From Betaproteobacteria bacterium (GTDB lineage: Bacteria > Pseudomonadota > Gammaproteobacteria > Burkholderiales > Rhodocyclaceae), in assembly GCA_016234745.1 (NCBI GenBank), contig JACRAR010000052.1, positions 1-64,000 of the forward strand: 64,000 bases of DNA, in the 5' to 3' direction. The notes under the pieces were generated by a model, which saw nothing but the letters and a program-made list of their open reading frames with translations, did no database searches and had not been told where the DNA came from. Position numbers and translations under genes: made by a program. This document shows positions 26,490 to 41,877 of the stretch, piece after piece; within the stretch, counting starts at the first letter, position 1; each line of letters starts with the position of its first letter.

Positions 26490-27161
26490 ATGATCCGTGT
26501 CGTCGTCGGTTTCGATCAGCGTGAGGCAGTCGCTTACCACACCTTCTGCCAGAGCATCATTGAGAAGGCATCTCAACCGGTATCTTTCCTGCCGCTGGCG
26601 CTGAATACTCTTTCGGGTTATACCGAGACACATAGCGATGGAAGCAACGCTTTCATCTATTCGCGTTTTCTGACGCCCTCGCTGTTCGATTTTCAGGGAT
26701 GGGCGATTTTTGCCGATGGCGACATGCTTTGCCGCGACGATATCGCCAAGCTCTGGGCGCTGCGCGACGAGAGCAAAGCGGTGCTGGTGGCCAAGCACGA
26801 TTACAAGACCAAGGCGCCTGACAAGTATCTCGGCAACAAGAATGCCGACTATCCGCGCAAGAACTGGTCGAGCGTGGCGCTGTGGAATTGCGGTCATGCC
26901 GCCAACAAGCTGCTGACGGCCGAGCACGTCATGAAACAGACGGGCGCCTATCTGCATCGGTTTTCCTGGCTTGACGATAGTCTGGTCGGCGAAATCCCGA
27001 AGGAATGGAACTGGCTGACGACCGAGTACCCGGACAACTACAACGCTCATCTCCTTCATTACACTTTGGGCACGCCCTGCTTCAAGGACTACTGGTCCTG
27101 CGAGATGTCGGGCGAGTGGCATGCAGCTGCCCGCCGTGTGCAGGATGGCATCGGCGTTTGA
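26490..27161 (+). CDS. putative GT-A (family 8-like) glycosyltransferase
   Basis: The 223-residue protein has the GT-A outline: N-terminal RVVVGFDQREAVAYHTFCQS, a donor-binding region with IYSRFLTPSLF, the metal-binding DxD in AIFADGDMLCRDD, and downstream NYNAHLLHYTLGTPCFKDYW containing the histidine-rich closing segment seen in GT8-type enzymes. GGGAG lies seven bases before the ATG. No signal peptide or membrane segment is present, so a cytoplasmic role is expected. It is followed after seven bases by the arabinose-5-phosphate isomerase gene, consistent with a lipopolysaccharide or capsule function. Confidence 0.72.
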   Translation: MIRVVVGFDQREAVAYHTFCQSIIEKASQPVSFLPLALNTLSGYTETHSDGSNAFIYSRFLTPSLFDFQGWAIFADGDMLCRDDIAKLWALRDESKAVLVAKHDYKTKAPDKYLGNKNADYPRKNWSSVALWNCGHAANKLLTAEHVMKQTGAYLHRFSWLDDSLVGEIPKEWNWLTTEYPDNYNAHLLHYTLGTPCFKDYWSCEMSGEWHAAARRVQDGIGV

Positions 27162-27168
27162 CCTGAAT

Positions 27169-28164
27169 ATGACCCAGACTCCTCAGCAGGAAAGCCCCCA
27201 TCTCGCCGTTGCCCGGCGGGTATTGTTGGAAGAACTGGAAGCCATCGCGGCGATGGCCGATCGCCTCGATAGCCGCTTTGTTGCCGCGGTCGACGTCATC
27301 CTCGCCTGCGAGGGCCGGGTGGTTGTGACCGGCGTCGGCAAGAGCGGCCATGTTGGCCGCAAAATCGCGGCGACATTGGCTTCGACGGGATGTCCGGCTT
27401 TCTTCGTGCATTCTGCCGAGGCGGGTCATGGCGATCTTGGCATGATCACCGGTCAGGACGTGGTGCTGGCGATCTCCAACAGCGGCGAATCCGATGAGGT
27501 CGTCAACCTGGTGGTCTTTGCCAAGCGGTTCGGAGCCTACATTATTGGCATGACCGGCCGCCCCGCCTCCGCACTGGCGCAAGCGAGTGAAATCGTTCTT
27601 GATTCCTCGGTAGTCAAGGAGGCCTGCCCATTGGGCATTGCCCCGACCTCCAGCACAACGGTTCAGTTGGCTCTGGGTGATGCCCTGGCGATGGCTGCCC
27701 TGAGCGCACGCGGCTTTTCTTCCGACGACTTTGCGCGCACCCACCCCAAGGGTGCGCTCGGTCGTCGCCTGTTCATGCGTGTGCGCGATTGCATGAAAGA
27801 CATCGACAATGTTCCGCACATGAACGATGCGACGCCCTTGTTGACAGCAATTTCGGAGATGGCCACATCGCGTGCCGGCGCGATCATTGTGCTCGGCAGC
27901 GACAAGAAGCTTGCGGGAATTTTTACCGACAGCGACTTGCGCCGTTTGCTGGTTCGCTCCAGTCAGGACTTGGGCACCTTGCAGTCGCTTTGCCTGAGGG
28001 ATGTCGTTACCGCGCATCCATTGAGCATCAACGCCGACCATCTGGCCAGCGAGGCGATGGCGATGATCGAGGCGCGCCATGTCAGCCGCCTCATCTGCAT
28101 GGATGGCGACCGCGTCGCCGGCCTGATTTCCCTGCACGACCTGATCGAACACAAGATCGCCTGA
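27169..28164 (+). CDS. kdsD: D-arabinose-5-phosphate isomerase (KdsD/KpsF/GutQ family)
   Basis: The enzyme interconverts ribulose-5-phosphate and arabinose-5-phosphate, the first step to Kdo. An SIS domain spans residues about 35-170 (VVVTGVGKSGHVGRKIAATL, AISNSGESDEVVNL, LGIAPTSSTTVQLALGDALA) and two CBS domains follow (residues about 205-260 and 270-331). The length of 331 is typical. The longer frame from 27121 overlaps the upstream gene; the ATG at 27169, just after that gene's stop, is chosen although its ribosome binding site is poor. The broken kdsA at 19663 belongs to the next step, so an intact kdsA must lie elsewhere. Confidence 0.9.
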   Translation: MTQTPQQESPHLAVARRVLLEELEAIAAMADRLDSRFVAAVDVILACEGRVVVTGVGKSGHVGRKIAATLASTGCPAFFVHSAEAGHGDLGMITGQDVVLAISNSGESDEVVNLVVFAKRFGAYIIGMTGRPASALAQASEIVLDSSVVKEACPLGIAPTSSTTVQLALGDALAMAALSARGFSSDDFARTHPKGALGRRLFMRVRDCMKDIDNVPHMNDATPLLTAISEMATSRAGAIIVLGSDKKLAGIFTDSDLRRLLVRSSQDLGTLQSLCLRDVVTAHPLSINADHLASEAMAMIEARHVSRLICMDGDRVAGLISLHDLIEHKIA

Positions 28165-28210
28165 AGGACTCATAGAACCAACAGCAGTTGGAGACTTGGA
28201 CATTATTTCT

Positions 28211-28233
28211 TCATATAGGATTCTCATATAGGA
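28211..28233 (+). repeat. short direct repeat upstream of the TnpB-like gene
   Basis: The decamer TCATATAGGA occurs at 28211-28220 and again at 28224-28233, with three bases between copies. It lies in the 114-base gap between kdsD and the TnpB-like gene, about 45-70 bases before that gene's ATG, where a promoter or regulator site would be expected. No standard promoter could be fitted with confidence. Confidence 0.5.
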
Positions 28234-28278
28234 AACTTGTGCTAGACTGCCCGCCTGTTGTGCACGACCGACCCTGGA

Positions 28279-28908
28279 ATGAAGACTGTAGTTCGCATTC
28301 AACTTGCCGCATCGCCCGAGCAAACGGCCAGCCTGGCCGACTTGCAGCGCGTCTTCGCCGATCTTTGCAACGTGCTCTCGCCCATTGTCCGCGAAACGCA
28401 TTGCTGGAACCGCGTCGGTTTGCACCATCTGGCTTATCGTGTGTTGCGTGAGCGTTTCCCGCAAATTGGTTCGCAGATGATCTGCAATGCGATTTATTCG
28501 GTTTCGCGGACCAGCCGGATTGTTTATCAAAAGCTGGACAGCCCCTGGAATGTTGGTCGTCGCTCGAATGAACCGTTGCCGCTGATCAAGTATTTGGCCA
28601 ATTCGCCGGTGTATTTCGACCGGCATACCTTGAGCTTGAAGAATGGCAGGCTTTCCATGTACACGCTGGAGGGCCGCTTGCGCTTCGACATCAATCTGAG
28701 TGCCGAGGACGAGCAGCGGTTCCACCAGGAGAAACTCTACGAAATCGTGCTGACGCGCAAAGCCAAGGGCTTTCAGTTGGCTTTCTTCTTTTCACAGACC
28801 GAGGATGTGGTCGCAGAAAGTGAGCACATCCCCGCATATTTCAAGGTTCTGGGCGGAAGCCGCAGAGCCATGGCGAGTTCGGTGGCATTGCTGCCGGCCA
28901 AAGGGTAA
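28279..28908 (+). CDS. TnpB/OrfB-like protein lacking the RuvC nuclease domain
   Basis: The 209-residue product aligns by eye with the N-terminal half of IS605-type TnpB proteins. VVRIQLAASPEQTASLADLQ, VGLHHLAYRVLRERFPQIGS, ICNAIYSVSRTSRIVYQKLD and the later YFDRHTLSLKNGRLSMYTLE match the recognition part that precedes the catalytic core. The RuvC domain and its D-E-D residues, and the zinc-finger cysteines, are absent, and the frame ends 14 bases before the ABC transporter ATG. The gene is intact and tightly spaced, so it may be a retained, repurposed protein rather than debris. RNA binding or regulation is inference. The ATG at 28279 is preferred to the TTG at 28258. Confidence 0.65.
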   Translation: MKTVVRIQLAASPEQTASLADLQRVFADLCNVLSPIVRETHCWNRVGLHHLAYRVLRERFPQIGSQMICNAIYSVSRTSRIVYQKLDSPWNVGRRSNEPLPLIKYLANSPVYFDRHTLSLKNGRLSMYTLEGRLRFDINLSAEDEQRFHQEKLYEIVLTRKAKGFQLAFFFSQTEDVVAESEHIPAYFKVLGGSRRAMASSVALLPAKG

Positions 28909-28922
28909 CGGGGAATATCACG

Positions 28923-30695
28923 ATGAACATGCCAGTTCAACGCTCCGAACTTGGACCCGTGCTGGGACAACTCAAGTCTTTTTTCAAGCGTGCGGCGGTT
29001 TTCAGTATTTTCACCAACGTGTTTGCCCTGGGACCGACCTTGTACATGTTTCAGGTTTATGGCCGGGTCGTTGATAGCCGTAATTATCTGACCCTGACCA
29101 TGCTGACCTTGGCCGTCGTCGGTCTTTACGTGTTTCTGGAAATGATCGAGTGGGTGCGCACCCGGCTCTTGCACAATGCCGGCTTGCAGTTTGATGCAAT
29201 ACTTTGCGAGCGGGTTTTCAATGCGATCTTCCAGTCCAATCTGGTCAAGCCTTCGGGAGGGAGCGCCCAGCCTCTGAGTGATTTGCGTACCCTGCGTGAG
29301 TTCATGTCTTCGCATGCCCTGCTGGCGATGATGGATGTGCCGTTCTCACTGCTTTATCTGATCGTGATTTTCATGATTCATCCGGTGCTCGGGCTGTTTT
29401 CGCTGGTCGGCGCCATTGTCCAGACCGTGGTTTCTCTGCTCAACGAGAAGAGCATGAGGCCACCGTTGACCGCCGCCAACAACGCGGCGATCGCTGCGGG
29501 CTACTATGCCAAGAATTCCTTGCGCAACGCCCAGGTCATCGAAGCCATGGGCATGGGGGCTAACATCGAACGGCGCTGGATGGAAAAACAAGGCCTGTTC
29601 CTGCGTCTCCAGGCAGTGGCTTCGGACATTGCCGGCGGCAGCGGAGCTGCTTCCAAGTTCATTCAATTGACCCAAAGTTCGATGATTCTCGGGCTGGGCG
29701 CCTATCTCAACGTCAAGGGCCAAGCGGCTGCGGGCGGCGGCATCATGAGCGGCGGTTTGATCATTGTCGCCTCTGTTCTTGGCGGCAAGGTGGTGGCGCC
29801 CCTGATGCAGGCTTTGGCCCAATGGAAAATGGTAATCACGGCGCGCAATTCCTATGAACGCCTGGATCAATTGCTGCAGTCTTTCCCCGAGAATTCCAGC
29901 AGCATGACTCTGCCGACGCCAAAAGGCAATCTGGAAGTAGCGGTCTATCGTGCTACCGCTCCAGGCAGTAACGCGGCAATCCTGCAAAACGTGGGCTTTA
30001 CCCTGGCCGCCGGAGAAATTCTGGCGGTCATCGGCCCTTCGGCTTCGGGCAAGTCGACGCTGTCACGCCTCCTGGTCGGCATCTGGCCTGCGGCAGTCGG
30101 TGGCGTGCGCCTGGACAGTGCCGACATCTACGCCTGGAACAAGGCCGAACTAGGACCGCACATCGGTTATTTGCCGCAGGATGTAGAGTTGCTTGAAGGG
30201 AGCCTGGCAGAAAATATCGCCCGCTTCGGGGAAATCGACATGGTCAAGGTTGAAGCCGCGGCGCGCCTGGTTGGTTTGCACGAGATGATCATGGCATTGC
30301 CCCAGGCTTATGACACTTTCGTGGGGGAGGATGGTTGTTTCCTCTCCGGCGGCCAGCGCCAGCGCGTCGGACTGGCGCGTGCCCTCTACGGCAATCCACG
30401 CTTTGTCGTTCTCGACGAGCCCAACTCCAGCCTGGACGAAGAAGGAGAACTGGCTTTGATCAAAGCCATGTTGGCCTTGAAGAAGCTCGGCACCACGCAA
30501 GTGGTGATCACCCACCGCCCCTTGTTATTGTCTGTTGTCGACCGCATCCTGGTCCTACATAACGGCACCATCAAGGATTTCGGACCCCGTGAAACCGTGC
30601 TTGCCAATATTGCCAAAATGGTTGAGCAGCAGGTTGCCCGGATGCAACCCAAAAAGGAGGCAGGTGTTTTGCCTGCCGCAGCCAGGCTGACGTGA
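28923..30695 (+). CDS. type I secretion ABC permease/ATPase, PrtD-like (first of two)
   Basis: An N-terminal membrane domain of about six helices (FALGPTLYMFQVYGRVVDSR, LYVFLEMIEWVRTRLLHNAG, LLYLIVIFMIHPVLGLFSLV) precedes an ATPase domain with Walker A GPSASGKSTL, signature LSGGQRQRVGLARALYG and Walker B FVVLDEPNSSLDEEGE. No C39 peptidase or C39-like domain is present, as in PrtD/LipB-type exporters of RTX and related proteins with C-terminal signals. At 590 residues the length is normal. Its stop overlaps the next gene, a second non-identical half-transporter, so the pair could form a heterodimer. Confidence 0.92.
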   Translation: MNMPVQRSELGPVLGQLKSFFKRAAVFSIFTNVFALGPTLYMFQVYGRVVDSRNYLTLTMLTLAVVGLYVFLEMIEWVRTRLLHNAGLQFDAILCERVFNAIFQSNLVKPSGGSAQPLSDLRTLREFMSSHALLAMMDVPFSLLYLIVIFMIHPVLGLFSLVGAIVQTVVSLLNEKSMRPPLTAANNAAIAAGYYAKNSLRNAQVIEAMGMGANIERRWMEKQGLFLRLQAVASDIAGGSGAASKFIQLTQSSMILGLGAYLNVKGQAAAGGGIMSGGLIIVASVLGGKVVAPLMQALAQWKMVITARNSYERLDQLLQSFPENSSSMTLPTPKGNLEVAVYRATAPGSNAAILQNVGFTLAAGEILAVIGPSASGKSTLSRLLVGIWPAAVGGVRLDSADIYAWNKAELGPHIGYLPQDVELLEGSLAENIARFGEIDMVKVEAAARLVGLHEMIMALPQAYDTFVGEDGCFLSGGQRQRVGLARALYGNPRFVVLDEPNSSLDEEGELALIKAMLALKKLGTTQVVITHRPLLLSVVDRILVLHNGTIKDFGPRETVLANIAKMVEQQVARMQPKKEAGVLPAAARLT

Positions 30696-32479
30696 TGAAC
30701 CATCGAGTGCAGATTGCGAGTCTCAATCAGCCGGTACAACGCCGGGGCTGGCTGCATCGACTCAATGCCTTTTTCGCAAGGAGTGAACTGACCCGCACGC
30801 TGAAAGGCTTCAAGCGCGAGTTCTATACCGTCGGGTTGTTCAGTTTGGTGGTCAACCTGCTGATGCTCACCCCGACCATGTACATGCTCCAGGTGTATGA
30901 CCGAATCCTGTTGAGCCGCAATGAAGTCACCTTGCTGGCGCTGTCGTTGATCACCCTTTTTCTCTTTGTCATATTGGCGAGCACGGAATGGATGCGTTCA
31001 CGCTTGCTGGTGCGTGCCGGGGTGCGCCTGGATCTGGCGCTGAGTTCGCGCGTATTCAATGCCGCTTTCGAAGCGCACCTCAATCGCTCGGGTGATGATC
31101 CTGCCGAGGTTCTGGCCGATCTGACCAATATCCGTCAATTCCTTACCGGCAATGGCATTTTTGCTTTCTTCGATGCGCCATGGACGCCGATTTACCTGAT
31201 GGTGTTGTGGATCATCCATCCCGGGCTGGGCATGATCGGCATCTTTTTTGCAATCATTTTGCTTGGACTGGCTCTTCTGTCTCATCAACTGAGTCATGCA
31301 CCTTCCGAAACAGCGCAGGAATCAGCCAAGCAGGCAACGGGCTATGCCCAGAGCAAGCTGCGCAATGCAGAAATCATTGCTGCGCTGGGCATGCTGGACG
31401 ATTTGCGCCGACGCTGGCTGATGCGCTACCGCCAAAATATCCGGGATTGGTCCGAGTCTCAGGATGTTGCACATCGGCTTTTCGCCATCAGCAAGTTCGT
31501 GCGCTACAGCCAGCAGTCGCTGGTGCTCGGCGGAGCCGCCATCCTCGTGATCCGCGGTGATTTGACGGCTGGCGCGATGATCGCCGCCAATGTCCTTGTA
31601 ACACGCGCTATTCAACCGCTGGACGCCCTGGTCGGCGCCTGGAAGGGATTCTTTGCCGCCCGTCTGGCTTTCGAGCGTCTGGAGCGTCTGCTCGAGGCGC
31701 ATCCGGAACGCGCCGCAGGCATGGTTCATCCGGCGCCGCGCGGCCAGATTACCCTGGAACAGCTGGTGGCCAAGGCTCCGGGACGCGAGCAGCCGATTCT
31801 TCACGGGCTTGATGTGCAATTTCCTGCCGGCGAGGTGATTGCCATTGTTGGCCCTTCCGGTTCGGGCAAGTCGACCCTGGCGAAGTGTCTTATGGGTGTC
31901 TGGCCTGATTTCGACGGCAGGGTCTTGCTCGACGGCGAACGCCTCGACAGTTGGGAGCGCATCGAACTCGGACCGCATATCGGCTACTTGCCGCAGGAAA
32001 TCGAACTTTTCGAAGGTTCCGTGGCAGAGAATATCGCCCGCTTCGGCGAAATTGATTCGGAGAAGGTGATCGAAGCCGCCAAAAGGGCCAATTTTCACGA
32101 CATGATCCTGCGCTTCCCGAAAGGATACGATACCCCCATGGGGGTAGCGGGCAGCGCCATCTCCGGAGGCCAGCGGCAGCGCATAGCGCTTGCCCGCGCC
32201 ATGTACGGATCCCCTTCCTTACTCGTCCTCGACGAGCCCAATGCCAACCTCGACGAAGCCGGTGAAGTTGCGCTCGCCAGGGCAGTCCGTGATCTCAAGG
32301 CCCAGGGCAAGACCATCTTCCTGGTGACGCATCGCAAGCAGATACTTGTCTTGACCGATCGCATCCTGGTTCTTGCTGATGGATCCATACAACGTTATGG
32401 CACTACTGCCGAAATCATCAACTCGCTTTTGCCGCCGCCAGAACAACTACCTGTGGCCGCAACCCCAGAGGCCGCCTGA
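30695..32479 (+). CDS. type I secretion ABC permease/ATPase, PrtD-like (second of two)
   Basis: The layout equals that of the gene before it: transmembrane helices (LFSLVVNLLMLTPTMYMLQV, LLALSLITLFLFVILASTEW, YLMVLWIIHPGLGMIGIFFA) and an ATPase with GPSGSGKSTL, ISGGQRQRIALARAMYG and LLVLDEPNANLDEAGE. Both sets of catalytic residues appear complete. The two proteins are related but clearly diverged over the membrane domain, so this is not a recent copy. The ATG at 30695 shares its A with the upstream TGA (a GTG at 30692 also fits). It is followed by the adaptor gene after 32 bases. Confidence 0.92.
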   Translation: MNHRVQIASLNQPVQRRGWLHRLNAFFARSELTRTLKGFKREFYTVGLFSLVVNLLMLTPTMYMLQVYDRILLSRNEVTLLALSLITLFLFVILASTEWMRSRLLVRAGVRLDLALSSRVFNAAFEAHLNRSGDDPAEVLADLTNIRQFLTGNGIFAFFDAPWTPIYLMVLWIIHPGLGMIGIFFAIILLGLALLSHQLSHAPSETAQESAKQATGYAQSKLRNAEIIAALGMLDDLRRRWLMRYRQNIRDWSESQDVAHRLFAISKFVRYSQQSLVLGGAAILVIRGDLTAGAMIAANVLVTRAIQPLDALVGAWKGFFAARLAFERLERLLEAHPERAAGMVHPAPRGQITLEQLVAKAPGREQPILHGLDVQFPAGEVIAIVGPSGSGKSTLAKCLMGVWPDFDGRVLLDGERLDSWERIELGPHIGYLPQEIELFEGSVAENIARFGEIDSEKVIEAAKRANFHDMILRFPKGYDTPMGVAGSAISGGQRQRIALARAMYGSPSLLVLDEPNANLDEAGEVALARAVRDLKAQGKTIFLVTHRKQILVLTDRILVLADGSIQRYGTTAEIINSLLPPPEQLPVAATPEAA

Positions 32480-32511
32480 CAACTAATTTGCCGCTGAACC
32501 TGACGACTATG

Positions 32512-33879
32512 ACCATAAGCAATATTCTCCAGAGCCTGCGGGGTGGCAATCGAACCTCGCAAAATAACCAAGGCGAGGGGCAACCTGACCTGCCCGCCGA
32601 TACCAGCCAGCCTACGCGCGTTGGTTTATGGGTGCTTGGCCTGGGTCTGGGCGGCTTCATCCTCTGGGCAGCATTTGCCCCGCTCGATGAAGGTGTGCCG
32701 ACTATGGGTACAGTGACCATAGACACCAAGCGCAAGCCTGTTCAACATCCAAGCGGCGGCATCATTCGCGAGATCCATGTCAAGGAGGGCGATCAGGTTG
32801 CTCAAGGCCAGCTCTTGATCAAGCTCGATGACGCCCAGTCGCGTGCCAATTACGAGACGATACGACAGCACTATCTGACCCTGCGCGCCATTGAGGGCCG
32901 CTTGCTCGCCGAGCAGGCCGGCCATGGCGCCATTATTTTCCATCCGGATCTGATCAAGGCGAAGCAAGACCCGATCGTCGCCCAGTTCATCAGCAACCAG
33001 CAACAGCTTCTGCAATCACGACGTGCCGCGCGCGAAGCCGAAGACCAGGCCATTCATGAGGCAATTCGCGGACAGCAGGCCAGTCTGAAAAGTCTGCAGA
33101 CCATGCTTCCGCACCGCGTCAATCAGCTGGCGCTGTTGCGTGAGGAGTTTGCCGGGATTCGCGATCTGGTGGCAGAGGGTTACGCACCAAGAAGCAAGCG
33201 GAACGAACTGGAGCGCACGATAGACGAAGTCAGTGCCAACATTGCCGATACCGAGGGCAACATCGCGCGTCTGCAAAGGGGCATCGAGGAGCAGACCTTT
33301 CGCAGCACCCAGCGTCGCCAGGAATACCTGAAAGAAGTCAATGGTCTGCTTGTCGATATTCGCCGTGAGGTTCAGGCCGATGCCGACAAGTTCAAGGCGG
33401 CATCTGACGAATTCGGTCGTGTGGATATTCGTGCAACAGTGGCTGGCCAGGTTGTAGGGCTGGCCTTCCAAACCGTGGGGGGGGTTGTCCAGCCCTCCCA
33501 AAAGCTCATGGATATCGTTCCGGCGAATGAAGAGCTGATGCTTGAGACGCATGTTCCTCCCCACCTCATCGACAGGGTCCAGGCCGGCCAATTTGCCAAT
33601 ATCCGGTTTTCCGGTTTCGCCCATTCACCGCAACTCGTGGTGCAGGGCAAGATCCTGTCGATCTCGAGCGATCTGCTTTCCGATCCCTCCGGCCAGCAGC
33701 CACCCTATTATCTGGCGCGGGTTGCGGTCACGGCCGAGGGGCGAAAGGAATTGGGACAACACCAGTTGCAGGCAGGCATGCCTGCTGAAGTGGTCATCAA
33801 AACCGGGGAGCGTACACTGCTCACTTACCTGCTCCACCCCTTGGCCAAGCGATTGTCGAGTGCAATGGTCGAGGAATAG
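32512..33879 (+). CDS. HlyD-family periplasmic adaptor of type I secretion
   Basis: A single N-terminal transmembrane helix (VGLWVLGLGLGGFILWAAFA) anchors the protein. It is followed by the lipoyl-like half (VQHPSGGIIREIHVKEGDQV), a long coiled-coil hairpin of about 200 residues, the second lipoyl half (RVDIRATVAGQVVGLAFQTV) and a C-terminal barrel with the conserved LQAGMPAEVVIKTGERT. This is the AprE/PrtE-type adaptor linking the ABC exporter to a TolC channel. The ATG at 32512 is chosen; the frame opens at a TTG (32488) without a ribosome binding site. The length of 455 residues fits. Confidence 0.92.
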   Translation, partial: TISNILQSLRGGNRTSQNNQGEGQPDLPADTSQPTRVGLWVLGLGLGGFILWAAFAPLDEGVPTMGTVTIDTKRKPVQHPSGGIIREIHVKEGDQVAQGQLLIKLDDAQSRANYETIRQHYLTLRAIEGRLLAEQAGHGAIIFHPDLIKAKQDPIVAQFISNQQQLLQSRRAAREAEDQAIHEAIRGQQASLKSLQTMLPHRVNQLALLREEFAGIRDLVAEGYAPRSKRNELERTIDEVSANIADTEGNIARLQRGIEEQTFRSTQRRQEYLKEVNGLLVDIRREVQADADKFKAASDEFGRVDIRATVAGQVVGLAFQTVGGVVQPSQKLMDIVPANEELMLETHVPPHLIDRVQAGQFANIRFSGFAHSPQLVVQGKILSISSDLLSDPSGQQPPYYLARVAVTAEGRKELGQHQLQAGMPAEVVIKTGERTLLTYLLHPLAKRLSSAMVEE

Positions 33880-33972
33880 AAACAACAAATTATGTATGAT
33901 TGACCCGTATCAATTCCATTTAGACTTTGCTAGGCTATCCTAATCGTTTTACTTTTTCACGGAGTGTCCATC

Positions 33973-34929
33973 ATGGGTAACAAGATCACAGATCGGATCG
34001 ACGAAATCACCAAGATTCCACCGGCTTACATGAAGGCTGAGTTGCCGGCACCGAAAAGCGTAAAGATCGAGATTTCACCACGCTGCAATTTCCGTTGTGG
34101 CTTCTGTGCCTTGCGCACCAGAGAGTCGCAACCCAAGTGGGACATGGATTTTGACCTGTTCAAGCGCGCCACTCGTGAAATGCGCGAAGCGGGGGTCGAG
34201 GAAATCGGGGTGTTCTACCTGGGCGAATCCTTCATGAATCCCAAGTTGCTGGTGGATTGCATCACCTACCTCAAGGCCGAATTGAAAATGCCTTATGTAT
34301 TCCTGACTTCGAATGCCTCGCTGTCATTTCCCGAAGCAGTTGAAGAGTGCATGAAGAATGGCCTCGATTCACTGAAGTGGTCCTGCAACGCGGCTGACGA
34401 GGAGCAATTCGAAAAGGTCATGGGTGTTTCCGGGAAACTGTTTCATGCAGCGCAGGAAAACATCAAGGCAGCATGGGAAATTCGTCAGTCCAAAGGTTAC
34501 AAGACCGGTTTGTATGCTTCGTCGATCCGGTATGACGGCGAACAGTTCGACAAGATGGACAAGCTTCTCAATGAAAAGATACGCCCCTATGTCGACCAGC
34601 ATTACTGGCTGCCGCTTTACTCCATGGGTGCTTTCGCCACACAGCGCGAGGCAGAGCTTGGATATCGTCCGACCGCAGGCAATCAGGGTCGGTGGGATGC
34701 ACTGCGCGAGCCTTTGCCCTGCTGGTCTGCCTTTACCGAAGGCCACCTGACAGCCGAAGGCAAGCTGTCGGCCTGCTGCTTTGATGCCAAATCCAACTGG
34801 ACCATGGGTGATCTTACCAAGCAGAGCTTCATGGAAGCGTGGAATTCGCCGGAGTTCGTCGCCCTGCGTGCGGCACATCTGAAGAAGGATGTGACAGGCA
34901 CGGTCTGCGAATCCTGCATCGCCTATTGA
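33973..34929 (+). CDS. radical SAM/SPASM enzyme in the secretion locus
   Basis: CNFRCGFC in SPRCNFRCGFCALRTR is the CX3CX2C cluster motif, and IGVFYLGESFMNP is the following SAM-binding segment. The C-terminal region has cysteines at EPLPCWSAF, GKLSACCFDAK and TVCESC, consistent with an SPASM auxiliary cluster. The ATG at 33973 follows GGAG eight bases upstream. It lies 93 bases behind the HlyD adaptor and is coupled to the flippase gene behind it, with no sugar gene next to it except the flippase. Modification of the exported protein, or of a glycan that decorates it, is the main inference. No precursor peptide was seen. Confidence 0.85.
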   Translation: MGNKITDRIDEITKIPPAYMKAELPAPKSVKIEISPRCNFRCGFCALRTRESQPKWDMDFDLFKRATREMREAGVEEIGVFYLGESFMNPKLLVDCITYLKAELKMPYVFLTSNASLSFPEAVEECMKNGLDSLKWSCNAADEEQFEKVMGVSGKLFHAAQENIKAAWEIRQSKGYKTGLYASSIRYDGEQFDKMDKLLNEKIRPYVDQHYWLPLYSMGAFATQREAELGYRPTAGNQGRWDALREPLPCWSAFTEGHLTAEGKLSACCFDAKSNWTMGDLTKQSFMEAWNSPEFVALRAAHLKKDVTGTVCESCIAY

Positions 34930-36799: not shown

Positions 36800-37217
36800 A
36801 ATCCTTCCTTCGTTCGTTGCTGCATACGACGATTTGGATCCGGAAATCCAGCAGCGGACTCAGGAAGCCGTAATCCATTTCTCCGATCGGTCGGCAGACA
36901 ATGCCTTGCGTCCGGAGCTGAAGAACGGCCTGGATAATGTCTGGGGTTTCCGCGTTACAGGCCGTTACCGAGCCTTTTACAAGAAACTGCGTGATAAGGA
37001 TGGCGCCATTTATTGCCTTTTTCATGTCGGACACCATGATGACTATCGGGTTTTGAAGAATCTTTCATCACGGGTTTCAATCTCAATGGTAACCAGCGGG
37101 TCAACCCAGATCAAAATTAATTTCGGCATGGCACCTGGCGCATCGGTGCCACAACCTGCCGAGAAGCCCTTGCAACAGAATGTGAACCGCCATGGCAGAA
37201 AAAAGAAAAAGCATTAG
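36771..37217 (+). CDS. RelE/HigB-like protein with a basic C-terminal tail
   Basis: Residues about 10-100 resemble a RelE-superfamily toxin: VEILPSFVAAYDDLDPEIQQ, LRPELKNGLDNVWGFRVTGR, YRAFYKKLRDKDGAIYCLFH and VGHHDDYRVLKNL. The RVTGRYRAFY core is characteristic. The remaining 50 residues form a lower-complexity tail ending in HGRKKKKH, unlike short RelE proteins of about 90 residues. The start overlaps the upstream gene. No Phd, RelB or HigA antitoxin is next to it; the preceding unrecognised protein is the only candidate partner. Whether it is toxic, or has another role in the secretion locus, is open. Confidence 0.6.
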   Translation: MAAMQPRRVEILPSFVAAYDDLDPEIQQRTQEAVIHFSDRSADNALRPELKNGLDNVWGFRVTGRYRAFYKKLRDKDGAIYCLFHVGHHDDYRVLKNLSSRVSISMVTSGSTQIKINFGMAPGASVPQPAEKPLQQNVNRHGRKKKKH

Positions 37218-37308
37218 AGCGGCTTATTGCCGTTTCACCAGTCAAGTAAGGATATTCATTAATGGAGTTGCGTTGATGCGAATATACGAAACATCTTGGA
37301 GAAAGTTG

Positions 37309-38742
37309 ATGCAGATTCGACCTTCTTTCCTCTTTGCCGTGATCCTCGGTGCGGGATTGGCAAATTTTCATCCAGCGCATGCGGTAGACCTGCTGCAGAG
37401 TTACCGTCAGGCCCTGGATCAGGATGCAACCTACCAGGCAGCGCGGGCTGAAGCCGCAGCCACAAGAGAGGTTCTGCCCCAGGCAAGGGCACAATTAATG
37501 CCCAATCTTTCTGCCAGCCTTGTGCGGGGCAAAAACCAGACTGATAGCACCACACCCGGACTGTTTTCTCCGCAACACAACAGCTACGAGTATTTGAGTA
37601 GCAACTACAACCTGATTCTGCGCCAACCCCTGTACCGCAAGTACAGCTTTGCGCTCTATCAGCAGGCCGAGTACCAGGTCGCTGGGGCCGAGGCTGCGCT
37701 TGACAAAAGCCTGCAGGATTTATTGGTACGACTCTGCAGTACGTATTTTGAGGCCTTGATGGCGAGCGATACTCTGGCTTTGGTACAGTCACAGAAGGAG
37801 GCCTACAGTTCGCAGTTGCAAGCGGCCAAACGCAGCTTCGCCGCAGGGCAAGGCACAAGGACAGATATCGACGATGCGCAGGCACGCTATGACATGATTC
37901 TTGCTCAGGAACTGGTTGCGAGACAGGATTTCTCTTATACGCGCCGGCAAATTGAGGTGATCACCAACTCCCCGACTGGCGAACTTGCCGTGCTTGATCC
38001 TCTGCGGATGGAACTGATCGGCCCCGTACCGGACAAGGCGGAAGAATGGATCAGCCGCGGAGAGGAAGTGAATGCCGAGCTTCGTGCAATGCATGCCAAT
38101 GTGGAAGCAGCGCGCAAGGAGGTGGAGAAGGCGCGGGCGGGACATATGCCGACGGTAGATTTCTACCTGCAGCGAGGCAAGAGCGATAGTGAAAACAATA
38201 CCTCGATTAATGCGCACTACCTCACATCGCAAGCAGGACTGCAGATCAATATCCCATTGTTTGCTGGCGGTCAGGTGGTTTCGCAGGCGCGCCAAGCTTT
38301 GGCCAACCTGGACAAATATAGGCAGCAGCACGAAGCCCGGCGTCGAGAGATAGGCGAGCAAATTCGCAAGGAATTCCAGAATGTCACTGAAGGAGTTTTC
38401 AAGGTGCGGGCGCTGGAGCAGGCGGAGCGCTCTGCCGATCAGGCGGTGTTCTCTAACCAGAAAGGCTTTCAGGCGGGCGTGCGCAGCCAGGTCGACATTC
38501 TGAATGCGCAGCAACAAAGAATGACTGCTCGGCGGGACTTGGCGCAGGCGCGCTACATGTATGTTGTCGCAAGAATCAAGTTGCAAGCCCTGGTCGGCTC
38601 TCTGGGCGAAGACGAGATCCAGCGCGTCAATTCCTGGCTAACTACTAAGGGTACCAGCTCAAACTTTGGATTGGTCAGCGGGCGCGAGTCTCAAGATTAC
38701 CTGGTTTCCGACATGCTTCGATCTTCTCGAACACTGCCTTGA
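37309..38742 (+). CDS. tolC: TolC-family outer-membrane channel of the type I secretion system
   Basis: A signal peptide (IRPSFLFAVILGAGLANFHP, cleaved after AHA) precedes the mature start VDLLQSYRQALDQDATYQAA, which matches the TolC opening. The family repeat is visible as paired segments (DLLVRLCSTYFEALMASDTL, then QAGLQINIPLFAGGQVVSQA and VRALEQAERSADQAVFSNQK). Two starts are possible, each with GGAG at seven to eight bases: 37276 and 37309. The shorter gives a 25-residue signal peptide and is preferred. With the two ABC proteins and the HlyD adaptor it completes a tripartite exporter. Confidence 0.9.
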   Translation: MQIRPSFLFAVILGAGLANFHPAHAVDLLQSYRQALDQDATYQAARAEAAATREVLPQARAQLMPNLSASLVRGKNQTDSTTPGLFSPQHNSYEYLSSNYNLILRQPLYRKYSFALYQQAEYQVAGAEAALDKSLQDLLVRLCSTYFEALMASDTLALVQSQKEAYSSQLQAAKRSFAAGQGTRTDIDDAQARYDMILAQELVARQDFSYTRRQIEVITNSPTGELAVLDPLRMELIGPVPDKAEEWISRGEEVNAELRAMHANVEAARKEVEKARAGHMPTVDFYLQRGKSDSENNTSINAHYLTSQAGLQINIPLFAGGQVVSQARQALANLDKYRQQHEARRREIGEQIRKEFQNVTEGVFKVRALEQAERSADQAVFSNQKGFQAGVRSQVDILNAQQQRMTARRDLAQARYMYVVARIKLQALVGSLGEDEIQRVNSWLTTKGTSSNFGLVSGRESQDYLVSDMLRSSRTLP

Positions 38743-40458: not shown

Positions 40459-41877
40459 ATGCCCACTGGTTTGACAAGAAATGCCGCCGCGATCCATGCG
40501 CTGTCTGCGTATGTTATCAGCATTACGTGGGCGTGCTGGGCCGCTGATGCAACTGCGGCCGATCCCTTCGATACATTGGGACTTGCTGCCGCTGGTCCGG
40601 CAGACAGCCGCAACAGCCAACTGCGTGTGCCCTGCCAAAAAGTTCCGGCTGCTACCGCGCTAACGTTGACCGATGTGGTTGAGCAGGCGCTCTGCAACAA
40701 TCCACAAACGCGGCTGGCCTGGATCAATGCGCGTGCCCAGGCCGCCCAGGTCGGCATTGCGCAGAGCGCCTTTCTGCCCAGCCTGACAGCCAACGTATCG
40801 CACAGTCGCAACGACACTTCTTCGCCGCAGCCCAGCTATACCCAGACCTCGGGCAGCCTTTCAATCAATTATCTGCTCTACGATTTCGGTGGTCGCGAGG
40901 CTACGCTGGAAAATGCCCGCCAGCTCATGACCGCGCTGGCTGCGACCCAGGACGCGACCTTGCAAAGCGTGTTCTTGTCTGCCGTGCAGGCCTATTACCA
41001 GCGCTACGCGGCCGCAGCGGCAGTGACGGCCGCCCGCGATTCCCTGCGCGCCAGCGAGGAAAGCCTGCAGGCTGCCGAAGTACGCTACCGCATCGGCACC
41101 AACACGCCGGCAGACCGATTGCAGGCGCAGACAGCTGCTTCGCAGGCGAGGCTGACATTGATCCAGGCCGAGGCGAATGCCAAGACCAGCATCGGCGTAC
41201 TTGCCAATGTCTTGGGCATCGATGCCAACACTTCACCTGCCATTGCGGAACCGGGCGATAGCGTGGCGCTGGAGAATTTCGAACGGAACATCGATGAACT
41301 GGTTGCTGCCGCCAAGCGCAGCCGTCCCGATCTGGCTGCGGCCGAGGCACAGGTCAAGGCGGCGCGCGCCAGCATCACCGTCGCCAATTCCACGGGCATG
41401 CCCGCTGTGTCCTTGTTCGCCAACCGCAACTATAGCGATGGCGGGATGGCGGACGCTTTGCGCAGCAACGCGATCGGCGTTGCGGTCACCATCCCGCTGT
41501 TCTCCGGCTTCAACATCACCTACCGGCAGCGTGCTGCCGAGGCGCAACTGGAAGCGAAAACGACCCAGTATGAGCAACTCTCCAAACAGGTGTCGCTCGA
41601 TGTCTGGCGCGCCTATTACGCCTTGCAGAGCGGCACCGCGGCGGTGCGCGCCAGCGCCGACCTGGTCGCCAGCGCCGAAGCCTCCGAGAGGATGACGGCT
41701 GGCCGCTACAAAGCTGGCTATGGCGCCATTCTTGATCTGCTCAATGCCCAGAGCGCCTTGGCCAGCGCCCGTCAGCAACAGATTCAGGCACAGTTCAACT
41801 GGCGCATCGCCAAGGCTGCCCTGGCGCAAGCCTTGGGCGAGCTCGATTTCAGCCAGCTCCAGACTTCCGCCAGGTGA
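40459..41877 (+). CDS. TolC-family outer-membrane efflux protein
   Basis: A signal-peptide-like N-terminus (IHALSAYVISITWACWAADA) leads into the TolC fold, with the paired repeats visible (LTLTDVVEQALCNNPQTRLA and later VSLDVWRAYYALQSGTAAVR) and the conserved YKAGYGAILDLLNAQSALAS segment near the C-terminus. It is the first gene of a drug- or peptide-efflux operon with a MacA-like adaptor and MacB-like ATPase and permease. Its stop is 20 bases before the adaptor ATG. It is not closely similar to the TolC protein at 37309, so the window carries two different channels. Confidence 0.88.
   Translation: MPTGLTRNAAAIHALSAYVISITWACWAADATAADPFDTLGLAAAGPADSRNSQLRVPCQKVPAATALTLTDVVEQALCNNPQTRLAWINARAQAAQVGIAQSAFLPSLTANVSHSRNDTSSPQPSYTQTSGSLSINYLLYDFGGREATLENARQLMTALAATQDATLQSVFLSAVQAYYQRYAAAAAVTAARDSLRASEESLQAAEVRYRIGTNTPADRLQAQTAASQARLTLIQAEANAKTSIGVLANVLGIDANTSPAIAEPGDSVALENFERNIDELVAAAKRSRPDLAAAEAQVKAARASITVANSTGMPAVSLFANRNYSDGGMADALRSNAIGVAVTIPLFSGFNITYRQRAAEAQLEAKTTQYEQLSKQVSLDVWRAYYALQSGTAAVRASADLVASAEASERMTAGRYKAGYGAILDLLNAQSALASARQQQIQAQFNWRIAKAALAQALGELDFSQLQTSAR

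Follow-up and report, generated by a model that had tools for sequence, protein, structure and literature searches.

A TnpB-derived protein reduced to its WED and REC lobe heads a type I secretion operon and is a candidate guide-free regulator of it

What does an intact gene for half of a transposon nuclease do at the head of a type I secretion operon? We addressed this question in a 64,000-nucleotide stretch of DNA from a Betaproteobacteria bacterium of the family Rhodocyclaceae (contig JACRAR010000052.1, positions 1 to 64,000; the whole stretch is called the window here), where a short gene resembling only the N-terminal part of TnpB directly precedes an exporter gene. TnpB exaptation is known to yield RNA-guided regulators and CRISPR effectors. 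The initial annotation of this locus had proposed a regulator of the secretion genes and had compared the protein with TldRs, TnpB descendants with a dead RuvC nuclease. Our sequence analysis suggests that the best explanation, and in our judgement a probable one, is an autoregulator of the exporter operon, likely a repressor, that reads the target-adjacent motif (TAM) of its ancestors and probably uses no guide RNA. The gene in question is:

28279..28908, + strand: RuvC-less TnpB-derived protein (WED+REC lobe only), 209 amino acids (aa); evidence from the open reading frame (ORF), homologues, AlphaFold2, Foldseek and a tree

The ORF begins with ATG and is unbroken in translation. Its stop codon ends at 28908 and the exporter ATG lies at 28923, leaving a gap of exactly 14 nt, as had been annotated. 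The Pfam, NCBIfam and PHROGs family libraries gave no TnpB match for the 209-aa protein, and neither did a profile search of PDB sequences; the TnpB homology was therefore established through intermediates and the predicted fold. The TnpB/OrfB similarity anticipated from the sequence thus escaped the libraries and emerged through full-length TnpB homologues. The best match was a full-length TnpB from genome G048, of the same order (E-value 2.3e-29), which carries OrfB_IS605 and Cas12f1-like_TNB domains. Identity to the N-termini of the nearest full-length TnpBs was 44-47%.

We observed a confident fold in an AlphaFold2 model built from an alignment of 22 homologues (mean predicted local distance difference test score 88.6, predicted template modelling score 0.84). 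One strand, three long helices and a barrel form a WED-REC-WED arrangement with no further domain. The top 22 Foldseek matches in the PDB were Cas12f, TnpB (ISDra2 TnpB among them) and one Cas12k. The best matches were to the recognition lobe of Cas12f, although Cas12f proteins are only ~12% identical to the short protein and are CRISPR effectors that have RuvC and work with a guide RNA. The short protein stops at the point where RuvC (V-G-V-D-[IV]-G) starts in its relatives. It has the WED and REC recognition lobe of the TnpB/OrfB (IS200/IS605) family and lacks both the RuvC nuclease with its catalytic D-E-D and the TNB zinc ribbon; no OrfB_IS605 or TNB Pfam domain was found in any of the 22 short-family members. 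The isoelectric point of the WED/REC part is 8.8-10.9. The ORF at 28279-28908 is a complete TnpB WED+REC lobe without RuvC, and the first view of it as an intact N-terminal half ending before the catalytic core is borne out by the full-length homologues, the fold and the RuvC boundary.

Short homologues occur in 22 further genomes (32-62% identity), giving 23 with the host. In all 23 the short gene lies directly 5' of one or more PrtD-type ATP-binding cassette (ABC) exporter genes on the same strand, and an HlyD gene follows the ABC gene or genes in all 22 loci read that far (the G778 locus was read only as far as the first ABC gene). The commonest operon order is ABC1-ABC2-HlyD; L064, L067 and L068 have a single ABC gene. 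The nearest full-length TnpBs (L037-L039) have no exporter neighbours. The ancestral transposon ends, left (TTCATAGAA) and right (TTGTTTAC), were not found at the short gene, which is always in the exporter operon. A tree of 22 aligned short proteins placed them in one clade (support 100/99), with the full-length TnpBs of G048, G094 and Methylomarinovum as the sister group. The C-terminal tail that the short proteins share carries a conserved LPEY motif; the most divergent members have lost it. For five pairs of short genes, the ratio of nonsynonymous to synonymous substitution rates (dN/dS) was 0.03-0.32, indicating purifying selection. The gene is sparsely distributed: it is present in 13 of the 151 genomes of the host's family; 9 short forms were found among 399 for the order, and 2 of 369 in a class sample. 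No short-gene homologue precedes the exporter in four genomes with a related exporter that we examined in detail, so the exporter does not need the short gene. On this sequence evidence the short gene is a conserved domesticated TnpB family of single origin, and not a fragment.

The promoter of the operon contains a direct repeat (28211-28233; two exact copies of TCATATAGGA, spacing 13), which the initial annotation had put forward as a possible control site. We describe it as two candidate operator sites:

28210..28220, + strand: candidate operator site 1, TTCATATAGGA; conserved at related operon promoters and the sole exact copy in the host genome
28223..28233, + strand: candidate operator site 2, CTCATATAGGA (one mismatch), a direct repeat of site 1 with spacing 13

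An exact match to the 11-mer TTCATATAGGA is found at a single place in the 4.28-Mb host genome and, across loci, at the operon promoter in 18 of 23. The other five (L065, L035, L067, L068 and G778) have TTCATAT variants: the L065 site differs from the 11-mer by one mismatch, the L035 variant TTCATATATGC lies near the start of an upstream 507-aa ORF, and in L067, L068 and G778 the palindrome TTCATATATGAA covers the start codon. Four of the variant loci have TTCATATATG in place of TTCATATAGG (ATATG vs ATAGG). Because the 11-mer is conserved across genera and unique in the host genome, the repeat is more than chance, and it is a plausible operator of the exporter operon. The 11 bp columns are nearly invariant and conservation falls sharply beyond them; the selection criterion (no more than one mismatch, or the TTCATATATG variant) inflates column conservation, but 31 of the 42 sites are exact.

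Site number, orientation and spacing vary between loci. Frequently a -10-like sequence is flanked by one copy ~32 bp ahead of the start and a second, inverted copy that spans the start codon; elsewhere the pairs are direct or divergent, their start-to-start spacings ranging from 12 to 34. The first gene of the operon in L032 and L034 is tolC (OEP domain). There the paired sites lie at the start of the operon, 2.1 kb (L032) and 1.5 kb (L034) 5' of the short gene, which indicates that the site marks the operon promoter. Within the host's family (151 genomes), the exact site is found at the short-gene promoter in 11 of the 13 genomes with the gene. A single stray exact copy occurs in each of 10 of the 138 genomes without it, a rate close to that of a reversed control pattern. 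We found no exact site anywhere in the 14 family genomes that have a related ABC1 and no short gene. A wide regulon was rejected, as the 13 family genomes with the gene hold one exact site elsewhere. This copy, in G695 (C117:3178-3188; L126), lies just before a lipoprotein-like gene and may be fortuitous or mark a second target. In G778 and the members that diverge most (L067, L068, L151), TTCATATATGAA consists of two face-to-face TTCAT words over the start codon; it may be an older or minimal operator.

The first five bases of the 11-mer, TTCAT, are the TAM used by the full-length TnpB elements closest to the short family. Comparison of left ends showed that these elements are inserted directly 3' of TTCAT in 12 of 12 distinct insertions (six in G019, two in G149, three in G094 and one in G910). 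At one G094 insertion the TTCAT reads, on the opposite strand, as the start of host purN; it is therefore host DNA, i.e. a TAM. The TTCAT link covers G094, G019, G149 and G910, where insertion sites could be resolved, as distinct from G048 and Methylomarinovum tepidoasis. The IS200/IS605 TnpBs of this group (G094, G048, G019, G149, G910 and M. tepidoasis) have WED and REC domains homologous to the short protein and share its GSQMxCN and FDxxT motifs, and those of G094, G019, G149 and G910 have the TTCAT word at their insertion sites. Unlike the short proteins, they are full-length nucleases with RuvC and TNB, inside transposons and away from exporters.

In ISDra2 TnpB, contacts to the TAM come from WED/REC residues only, and the omega RNA (wRNA) guide scaffold is held by WED and RuvC (PMC10097598). 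As the TAM is read by WED/REC only, the half kept by the short protein is exactly the TAM reader. The short proteins and the TTCAT TnpBs have residues G64, S65, C69, N70 and T117 in common, which other TnpB lineages seldom or never show. ISDra2 Y52 and Q80 pair with Y53 and C69 of the short protein in three of three alignment modes; the ISDra2 sequence used for this agreed with eight residues that PMC10097598 names. Placement of ISDra2 K76, F77, T123 and N124 was unstable between alignment modes and was dropped.

These data suggest how the protein may work. A domesticated TnpB, cut to WED and REC, would act as a dedicated local DNA-binding regulator of the operon it heads, most likely as an autorepressor. 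Independent units, one to three at each promoter, would bind the asymmetric 11-bp TTCATATAGGA (TTCATAT core) through the ancestral TTCAT-reading surface extended into the adjoining bases. Binding would need no guide RNA, and protein-only binding is favoured. By occupying the promoter and start codon, the protein would stop RNA polymerase and hold the exporter silent until some signal relieves the block. The homology, missing RuvC, single origin, purifying selection, invariant linkage, operator conservation and TAM identity behind this proposal are all read from sequence. Several points weigh against it. We infer binding to the TTCATATAGGA site from co-occurrence and TAM identity, and repression rather than activation from site placement around the -10 and start codon only. 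A search of the window's operon promoter for a sigma-70 consensus was negative, and this promoter has no start-codon copy of the site. Where inverted sites cover the start codon, their ATGAA comes partly free from ATG-AAY coding.

The protein could instead still be RNA-guided, like a TldR, with TTCAT as the TAM and ATAGGA as a 6-nt seed for a guide RNA made elsewhere. The operator is exactly as long as the TAM (5) plus 6 nt, and WED also touches the wRNA scaffold in TnpB (PMC10097598). In one TldR, seed positions 1-6 are essential (PMC13418256), a number that the 6-nt remainder fits. However, the two sites at a promoter share 11 bp only, so one guide cannot pair further with both, and another usable ATAGGA copy as a possible guide is absent in most loci. 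The ancestral scaffold end joined to the seed (GTTTAC+ATAGGA) had no exact match in 12 gene-carrying genomes, where the scan gave background only. A search for a guide RNA near the gene had been suggested; an Rfam search of 26500-34500 returned nothing. The loss of RuvC removes half of the surface that binds RNA and the heteroduplex, and among the five loci with TTCATAT-variant sites four have TTCATATATG for TTCATATAGG. We consider RNA guidance improbable, and a TldR-like guide RNA for the short protein unlikely.

Equally doubtful, in our view, is an operator that belongs to another host regulator, with the TnpB-derived protein serving the operon in some other way, such as mRNA binding or exporter assistance. 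In its favour, the inverted sites of some loci could fold into an RNA hairpin that spans the start codon. Yet the exact site is missing where a related exporter occurs without the short gene, and TTCAT is the ancestral TAM. Direct-repeat and divergent sites, and operons that begin with tolC, do not suit an mRNA hairpin at the short gene; such a hairpin as the main function was rejected, as site orientation is not conserved. That the gene holds only the N-terminal TnpB half would also fit a decaying transposon fragment lying by chance before an exporter. We regard this as extremely improbable, since the gene is intact in every genome, forms one clade across orders, has a dN/dS of 0.03-0.32 and its own conserved C-terminal LPEY, and keeps an invariant neighbour. 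Homologues scattered as random fragments in no conserved position, which would have spoken for decay, are clearly not what was found: conserved position and selection refute this reading.

The guide-free regulator preferred here can be set beside TldRs. Both are TnpB descendants fixed beside a non-transposon gene (23/23 genomes for the short family), and for the short family the exaptation as transcriptional regulator and the action at a TAM-containing promoter site, with TTCAT within the operator, are predicted. The two differ in that TldRs still have RuvC, in mutated form, and a guide RNA, whereas in the short family RuvC is absent, rather than kept as a catalytically dead fold, and no guide was detected; its site is repeated, short and invariant. 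The comparison made at the outset therefore stands for a RuvC-less TnpB descendant as a likely regulator, a role supported by the conserved position and operator, but the evidence points away from RNA guidance and toward protein-only, TAM-derived recognition. No account of a RuvC-less TnpB regulator was found in the literature searched, which did not include the original TldR paper.

The exporter genes behind the short gene in the window are:

28923..30695, + strand: ABC1, PrtD-type type I secretion permease/ATPase, 590 aa (TIGR01842, 646.7 bits, cut-off 510)
30692..32479, + strand: ABC2, second PrtD-type permease/ATPase, 595 aa (TIGR01842, 680.1 bits)
32488..33879, + strand: HlyD-type membrane fusion protein, 463 aa (TIGR01843, 338.4 bits, cut-off 208.65)

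Both PrtD-type ABC proteins and the HlyD protein score above the curated cut-offs. A radical S-adenosylmethionine/SPASM protein is encoded 3' of them (33964-34929), and two genes for TolC-type outer membrane efflux proteins follow further on (37192-38742 and 40459-41877), either of which could serve the exporter. Just 5' of the operon, 27121-28164 encodes a SIS+CBS protein (KdsD-like sugar-phosphate isomerase), homologues of which are likewise near the operon in L032 and L034.

On balance we lean towards a new class of transcription factor, in which a TnpB/Cas12-type TAM-reading lobe without RuvC or guide would act as a protein-only autoregulator on an operator grown from the ancestral TAM. 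If true, this would be a third outcome of TnpB exaptation, in which only the lobe that reads the protospacer-adjacent motif or TAM was kept and became a conventional repressor. It would also become testable whether TAM recognition alone can give specific, stable DNA binding, and natural mini-proteins of ~200 aa with a defined 11-bp candidate site are available in this family.
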